Shown here: one piece after another, positions 1-664 of the stretch
Numbering within the stretch: the stretch's first letter is position 1
Layout of the letters: every line of letters starts with the position of its first letter
Assembly (NCBI RefSeq): GCF_902779965.1
Contig: NZ_CACZDK010000032.1
Coordinates: forward strand, 1-40,817
Direction: 5' to 3'
From: Fibrobacter succinogenes
GTDB lineage: Bacteria > Fibrobacterota > Fibrobacteria > Fibrobacterales > Fibrobacteraceae
Length of the DNA stretch: 40,817 bases
The notes under the pieces: model-generated
What the model was told of the DNA's origin: nothing
The model's input: only the letters and a program-made list of their open reading frames with translations
Database searches by the model: none
Position numbers and translations under genes: made by a program

Positions 1-453
1 GAAAAGACCCGCGAAGCCGTGTTTGCAAAGCTCGCCGCTGCTGGCCTTGAACTCTCCGAAGACGAAATGGGCGCTCTCGAAGAAGGCGACCTTTCCGAAA
101 CCGCCGACATCTACGCCAACCTCCGCTCTTACTTCCACAACCCGGATAAGAACGGGAACCCGGTGGACGGATTCAACTGGCAGGTATTCGCGTTCCTCAT
201 CTTTATCTTGCTTTACGTGCCTTGCCTTGCTGCGATGGGTGTCGTCGCCCGCGAAATCGGCCTCGGCCTCGCTGTTCTCATGGCAACCGTGCAGACAATT
301 CTTGCCTGGGCTGTGGCTGTGCTCCTTTACCAGGTGCCTGTTGGAGGCGACGCCAAGTGGATTGTCGCAGCCATCGTGGCGCTCGTGGGTACGGGCATCT
401 TCCTCAAGCTCTTCGGCATGAAGGCTAACAAGGAAAAACGTTTCGATAATTAG
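1..453 (+). CDS. feoB: Ferrous iron transporter FeoB, C-terminal part (5' end outside window)
   Basis: The reading frame is open from base 1, so this is the 3' end of a longer gene. FeoB moves Fe2+ across the inner membrane. The visible 150 residues hold a short hydrophilic segment and then the last membrane helices of the family, including the conserved VPCLAAMGVVAREIG motif followed by hydrophobic helices (LAVLMATVQTILAWAVAVLL) and a short basic tail. This C-terminus matches canonical FeoB much better than the second, divergent FeoB at 24323-26353. The G domain and the N-terminal helices lie upstream of the window. An intrinsic terminator follows at 477-508. Family assignment is from recognised motifs; the rest of the operon cannot be seen. 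Confidence 0.85.
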   Translation, partial: EKTREAVFAKLAAAGLELSEDEMGALEEGDLSETADIYANLRSYFHNPDKNGNPVDGFNWQVFAFLIFILLYVPCLAAMGVVAREIGLGLAVLMATVQTILAWAVAVLLYQVPVGGDAKWIVAAIVALVGTGIFLKLFGMKANKEKRFDN

Positions 454-476
454 TCTCATTCGAATCAAGAACCATA

Positions 477-508
477 GGGCCGGCGGCCCCAAAACCGTCG
501 GCCCTTTA
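477..508 (+). terminator. Intrinsic terminator after feoB
   Basis: GGGCCGGCGG (477-486) pairs with CCGTCGGCCC (495-504) across an eight-base CCCCAAAA loop, with one G-T pair. TTTATT follows. It lies 24 bases after the feoB stop codon. Confidence 0.85.
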
Positions 509-593: not shown

Positions 594-654
594 TTTTGTA
601 ACACGAATTGTAAAAAGCTTGACGGAGTGTTACAAAAAAAATCAAACCGTCAAG
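594..654 (+). promoter_or_regulatory. Possible H-type pseudoknot in the 5' leader
   Basis: Two perfect inverted repeats interlock. TTTTGTAACAC (594-604) pairs with GTGTTACAAAA (627-637), and CTTGACGG (618-625), inside that loop, pairs with CCGTCAAG (647-654). The order stem1-stem2-stem1-stem2 is that of an H-type pseudoknot: first loop 605-617, a one-base junction at 626 and an A-rich third loop at 638-646. The last paired base, G654, is the first G of the Shine-Dalgarno run GGGAGAG (654-660), so folding could hide the ribosome site of the gene at 665. A nine-base loop crossing eleven base pairs is tight, so stem 1 may be shorter in practice. The outer repeat might instead be a DNA operator. 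Confidence 0.45.
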
Positions 655-664
655 GGAGAGAAAA

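Follow-up and report, generated by a model that had tools for sequence, protein, structure and literature searches.

A conserved pseudoknot leader upstream of a porin gene in Fibrobacter, probably a new family of structured RNA

Small pseudoknot leaders and the Fibrobacter porin locus

The SAM-II and preQ1-II riboswitches are mRNA leaders built as an H-type pseudoknot with an A-rich third loop, where the last helix lies at the Shine-Dalgarno sequence and no terminator is present; a given riboswitch class is usually found in front of several genes that have no relation to one another. Pseudoknots close to the ribosome site that control the translation of one particular gene are known from rpsO (S15) and from gene 32 of phage T4, two mRNAs that encode their own RNA-binding regulator. 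A structured leader is also present in the mRNA of the outer-membrane protein OmpA, whose 5' UTR stem-loops have a demonstrated role in stability and do not include a pseudoknot. In this regard, the leader of a porin-like gene found in the window (the whole stretch of 40,817 nt of Fibrobacter succinogenes DNA analysed here) shares with SAM-II and preQ1-II the H-type pseudoknot, the A-rich third loop, the last helix at the Shine-Dalgarno sequence and the lack of a terminator, but has a much longer first stem (P1, 11-14 bp) and occurs in a single gene family of a single genus. With rpsO and T4 gene 32 it has in common a pseudoknot near the ribosome site, regulation being in the Fibrobacter case a prediction from sequence, whereas with ompA it shares the condition of a structured outer-membrane protein leader, only the Fibrobacter one containing a pseudoknot. 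Altogether, the leader appears to resemble the small pseudoknots known to regulate translation from an mRNA leader, apparently without matching any described family.

At the Rfam gathering score neither the window nor its relatives gave a match, and at E<=10 only RAGATH-35, mir-3167, CRISPR-DR41, STnc50 and sok came up, all of them far below threshold and unrelated chance matches. The leader likewise falls outside the covariance models of SAM-II, preQ1-II and the other riboswitches described in Rfam, and the resemblance is consequently architectural only. A previous sequence-only reading had proposed an H-type pseudoknot over the ribosome site of a porin gene. This proposal is supported, and the element is in addition conserved among orthologues and belongs to no Rfam family; its restriction to a single genus and a single family of genes speaks for gene-specific control more than for the riboswitch that this reading evoked. 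A literature search (Fibrobacter riboswitch, porin leader, sigma-54 study) returned nothing on this locus, nor a description of a comparable RNA regulator in Fibrobacter. Fibrobacter is a dominant cellulose degrader of the rumen, and this short leader, kept through most of the genus, is tied to an outer-membrane protein and to ferrous-iron genes, the positions of its promoter, its fold and the porin gene being precisely defined.

Architecture and genomic setting of the leader

All the features of the locus lie on the forward strand of the window unless otherwise stated. The 5' arm of P1 (TTTTGTAACAC, 594-604) makes 11 perfect pairs with its 3' arm (GTGTTACAAAA, 627-637), of which the GTGTTACA part is invariant in the family, and the 5' arm of P2 (CTTGACGG, 618-625) makes 8 perfect pairs with a 3' arm (CCGTCAAG, 647-654) that abuts and overlaps the Shine-Dalgarno sequence. 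Loop L1 (605-617, 13 nt) carries a TGTAAAA stretch that is invariant in alignments A1 and A5, L2 is a single nucleotide (A626), and L3 (AAAATCAAA, 638-646) is A-rich and varies in length among relatives. These perfect stems of 11 and 8 bp, their pseudoknot order and the A-rich third loop coincide exactly with the coordinates read originally, as does the double role of G654, which closes P2 as its final paired base and opens the Shine-Dalgarno sequence GGGAG (654-658, read from sequence). The conserved order of the two interlocking helices, 5'S1-5'S2-3'S1-3'S2, is that of an H-type pseudoknot. A P1 of 13-14 bp is frequent in relatives, and their P2 consists of a 5-bp core with 1-3 flanking pairs, usually ending 1-3 nt before GGAG; in all members the distance from its end to the Shine-Dalgarno is no more than about 3 nt. 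The concern that L3 is short for an 11-bp stem was a fair one, and it becomes sharper in relatives, where a P1 of 14 bp coexists with an L3 of about 8 nt. At the 5' end of the leader (571-593) relatives show a small hairpin, P0 (GGC-N4/5-GCC), which is paired in 66% of cells of alignment A2 and degenerate in the window copy. Chance had already been considered an unlikely origin for such stems, and the counts agree: one interlocking pair of perfect stems with minimum lengths of 11 and 8 bp occurs in the 40.8-kb window, compared with none in 100 dinucleotide shuffles, and relaxing the lengths to at least 9 and at least 8 bp still gave one observed against a shuffle mean of 0.07 (100 dinucleotide shuffles).

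The sequence-only reading had left out three features upstream of the leader, namely the 3' end of feoB, a DtxR-like box and a sigma-54 promoter. The feoB end, encoding a ferrous iron transporter permease, occupies positions 1-453 (NCBIfam FeoB, partial match, E 3.5e-9) and is followed by a GC-rich inverted repeat and a T-rich run (477-507, read from sequence), a probable feoB terminator, so that the porin mRNA is probably a separate one. Just 5' of the promoter lies the palindrome TTAGACAAGACTAA (523-536), a putative DtxR-family-like operator, as a TTAG-N6-CTAA-type element recurs at the same position in many of the loci that share the window's subtype and also in several pseudoknot-free loci. 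The promoter itself (TTGGCACGCATTTTGC, 544-559, with the -24 GG at 546-547 and the -12 GC at 558-559) matches TGGCAC-N5-TTGC in a genome that encodes one RpoN and in which the sigma-54 activator domain gave 8 strong matches and 3 weak ones. Transcription is expected to start near 570-571, which gives a leader of ~94 nt. A sigma-54 element (TGGCAC or TGGCAT, then TTGC) precedes 52/52 leaders at a near-constant distance, all of them lying ~12 nt 3' of it. In a second type of locus (L072-L088), there is an apparent overlap between the sigma-54 promoter and the final part of a short ORF (MGAEKNDSEWNELKNNWHALCFKK-like) located 3' of feoB.

The downstream gene (665-2023) encodes a porin-like outer-membrane beta-barrel of 452 aa, with a signal peptide and an Ala/Pro-rich linker. 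Its AlphaFold model is of moderate quality (mean pLDDT 65), with a disordered N-terminal region of 82 residues and barrel strands from residue 108, and its best Foldseek matches are porins, headed by the Campylobacter MOMP (E 4.2e-11). Two Fibrobacter porin-like proteins, FSU_2404 and FSU_0230, have been assigned to the PopA oligomeric superfamily (2025, PMC12228718). The genome from which the window comes holds a second feoB-leader-porin locus (L082, G000:C20:15000-21500), which adjoins the only DtxR-family gene of the genome; the two porin paralogues are 59% identical and both keep the leader pseudoknot. In a relative (L078) the gene order, according to Pfam, is DtxR-family regulator, FeoA, FeoB, leader and porin. 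On the minus strand of the window, a gene for a ZIP-family metal transporter (2155-2943, Pfam E 1.3e-24) converges on the porin gene.

Conservation, distribution and possible function

A first covariance model, built from 18 leaders, found the element in 50 of 80 Fibrobacter genomes, with 52 copies in total, and gave no credible match in the 87 genomes examined from the rest of the phylum. A second and tighter model (R2), run on the 167 genomes, recovered the same 52 as strong matches (E below 1e-12), the next one, which is spurious, having an E of 0.002. Among eight weak matches of R2, the six inspected as alignments lacked the fold; of these six, L156 and L157 corresponded to a different promoter/operator-like dyad and to a repeat with a long loop, respectively. 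The L156 sequence (~419-479, minus strand) is an unrelated perfect dyad, TTTTGTATCAT/ATGATACAAAA, placed over a sigma-70-like promoter and probably an operator. A pattern scan of 84,980 species returned Fibrobacter-type records and three other matches, which have no flanking stems, look like coding sequence and were set aside as chance. All the 52 leaders run into orthologous porin frames. The element is known from a single genus and a single family of genes, with one copy per porin locus, a distribution more suggestive of an element dedicated to this gene than of a metabolite switch in wide use.

When the porins compared share less than 62% identity, the fourfold-degenerate sites of their genes agree at 37% and the stem arms at 76-91% (90% for the 3' arm of P1, 76% for its 5' arm, 84% and 91% for those of P2), and conservation of the leader is therefore far above neutral. 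In alignment A2, which comprises 41 distinct and closely related sequences, the 11-bp core of P1 is paired in 447/451 cells (99%) and the 5-bp core of P2 in 205/205 (100%), and sliding the partners by 1-3 columns lowers pairing from 89% to 36-46%. On the porin tree, 15 core substitutions kept pairing and 3 broke it; for single changes starting from a Watson-Crick pair the figures were 8 and 3 (p about 0.11 against 50%). One pair of P1 is seen as U-A, U-G and C-G, a change from U-A to C-G via U-G, with G-U drifts at three more pairs, and P2 shows one double change from G-C to A-U, in L086 and L088. The compensatory changes anticipated in relatives do exist, one per stem, although their signal is weak and did not exceed the shuffle control in A2. 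Covariation appears real but is thin: one compensated change per stem plus the G-U drifts in P1. Both stems are supported, and the element is a conserved one, probably representing a new structured-RNA family.

The best explanation, for which we hold a slight preference over doubt, is a gene-specific cis-regulatory RNA leader acting through translational control, and we infer from the layout its translational mode, the direction of control and the link with iron. The sigma-54 promoter would give rise to an mRNA whose leader, some 94 nt long, folds as an H-type pseudoknot, in which P1 would be a long hairpin whose loop would pair, as P2, with the stretch before the Shine-Dalgarno, the A-rich L3 crossing P1. 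A formed P2 would lower access of the 30S subunit to the Shine-Dalgarno, and translation would proceed when P2 is open. Some factor, be it a protein, a small RNA, an ion or a metabolite, may shift the P2 balance, and it is probably tied to ferrous-iron status, given that the locus is organised as dtxR-feoA-feoB-porin. Such a factor would have to act in trans, since an outer-membrane porin, unlike the products of rpsO and gene 32, is not expected to bind its own mRNA. Translational control is the natural reading because every member has P2 directly 5' of its Shine-Dalgarno and there is no terminator; neither stem is followed by a U-run, for which reason a transcription attenuator was rejected and attenuation is unlikely. 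As a counterpoint, the ribosome is not necessarily blocked by a stem that ends just before the Shine-Dalgarno. The duplex energies of the window copy are similar (-11.2 kcal/mol for P1 and -11.3 for P2), and its computed nested minimum, under a model that leaves the pseudoknot unscored, has P2 without P1; P1 is present in the minimum of the five relatives folded. A CsrA site (ACGGA in the loop) was also rejected by eye, as relatives have ACGGG or ACGAT there. If the leader does sense something, this one porin would be under three layers of control: sigma-54, the DtxR-like operator and the RNA fold.

Other readings share part of this evidence. The pseudoknot and the 5' hairpin might constitutively protect a probably abundant porin mRNA, or favour ribosome loading, keeping the ribosome site open and sensing nothing, in the manner of the ompA 5' stem-loop. 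Such a role would agree with the gene- and genus-specific distribution, with the presence in most relatives of the small hairpin P0 close to where the mRNA is expected to begin and with two stems that look stable without a partner, but we regard it as unlikely, since the closeness of P2 to the Shine-Dalgarno and the invariant unpaired TGTAAAA would be superfluous for simple protection, and P0 is degenerate in the window copy. A new class of small-molecule or metal-ion riboswitch, perhaps sensing iron status, is in our view rather improbable: the SAM-II/preQ1-II-like layout, the ferrous-iron uptake genes nearby and conserved unpaired residues in L1 beyond the length required to span P2 speak for it, and against it the element serves a single gene family of a single genus, one copy per porin locus, and unrelated leaders precede several orthologous porins that also lie beside feoB. 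The more specific form of that proposal, a riboswitch class exclusive to Fibrobacter that would sense iron status (Fe2+ or a linked metabolite) through the pseudoknot over the Shine-Dalgarno of the sigma-54-driven porin at the ferrous-iron uptake locus, is decidedly improbable.

The inverted repeat could also act at the DNA level, TGTAACAC and GTGTTACA being half-sites for a repressor 3' of the promoter and the RNA fold incidental. A near-constant spacing of the arms (21-23 bp) and a third TGTAA in the loop fit this possibility. Nevertheless, the 3' half is invariant and the 5' half drifts mostly by A to G and C to T changes, those that leave a G-U pair in the sense RNA, and P2, although it lies outside the dyad, shows the same degree of conservation together with a compensated double change; this direction of drift and the equal conservation of P2 favour RNA, and make the operator very improbable. 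As for inverted repeats arisen by chance and devoid of function, the existence of only two compensated pairs is the point in their favour, and with no equivalent in the 100 shuffles and conservation across a near-saturated neutral divergence we find them hardly credible. The reading that we prefer is thus that of an RNA leader with translational control, dedicated to this porin.

Other leaders at Fibrobacter porin loci

Twenty porin loci in which the model found no match served as a control set, and they include some feoB-adjacent orthologues that lack the element. In one of them (L106), the DtxR-like box is kept and neither the promoter nor the pseudoknot is present. Six further porin loci (L089 and L091-L095, in genomes G009, G011, G058, G024, G025 and G056) carry another leader, with a hairpin of the ATCATCC-TTTA-GATGATGG type; these leaders retain the DtxR-like box, contain no pseudoknot and gave no Rfam match. 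Finally, at the porin loci L101 and L102 a sigma-54-like promoter is followed, in the absence of a pseudoknot, by a strong 5' hairpin of the AAGGTTTGC/GCAAGCCTT type.
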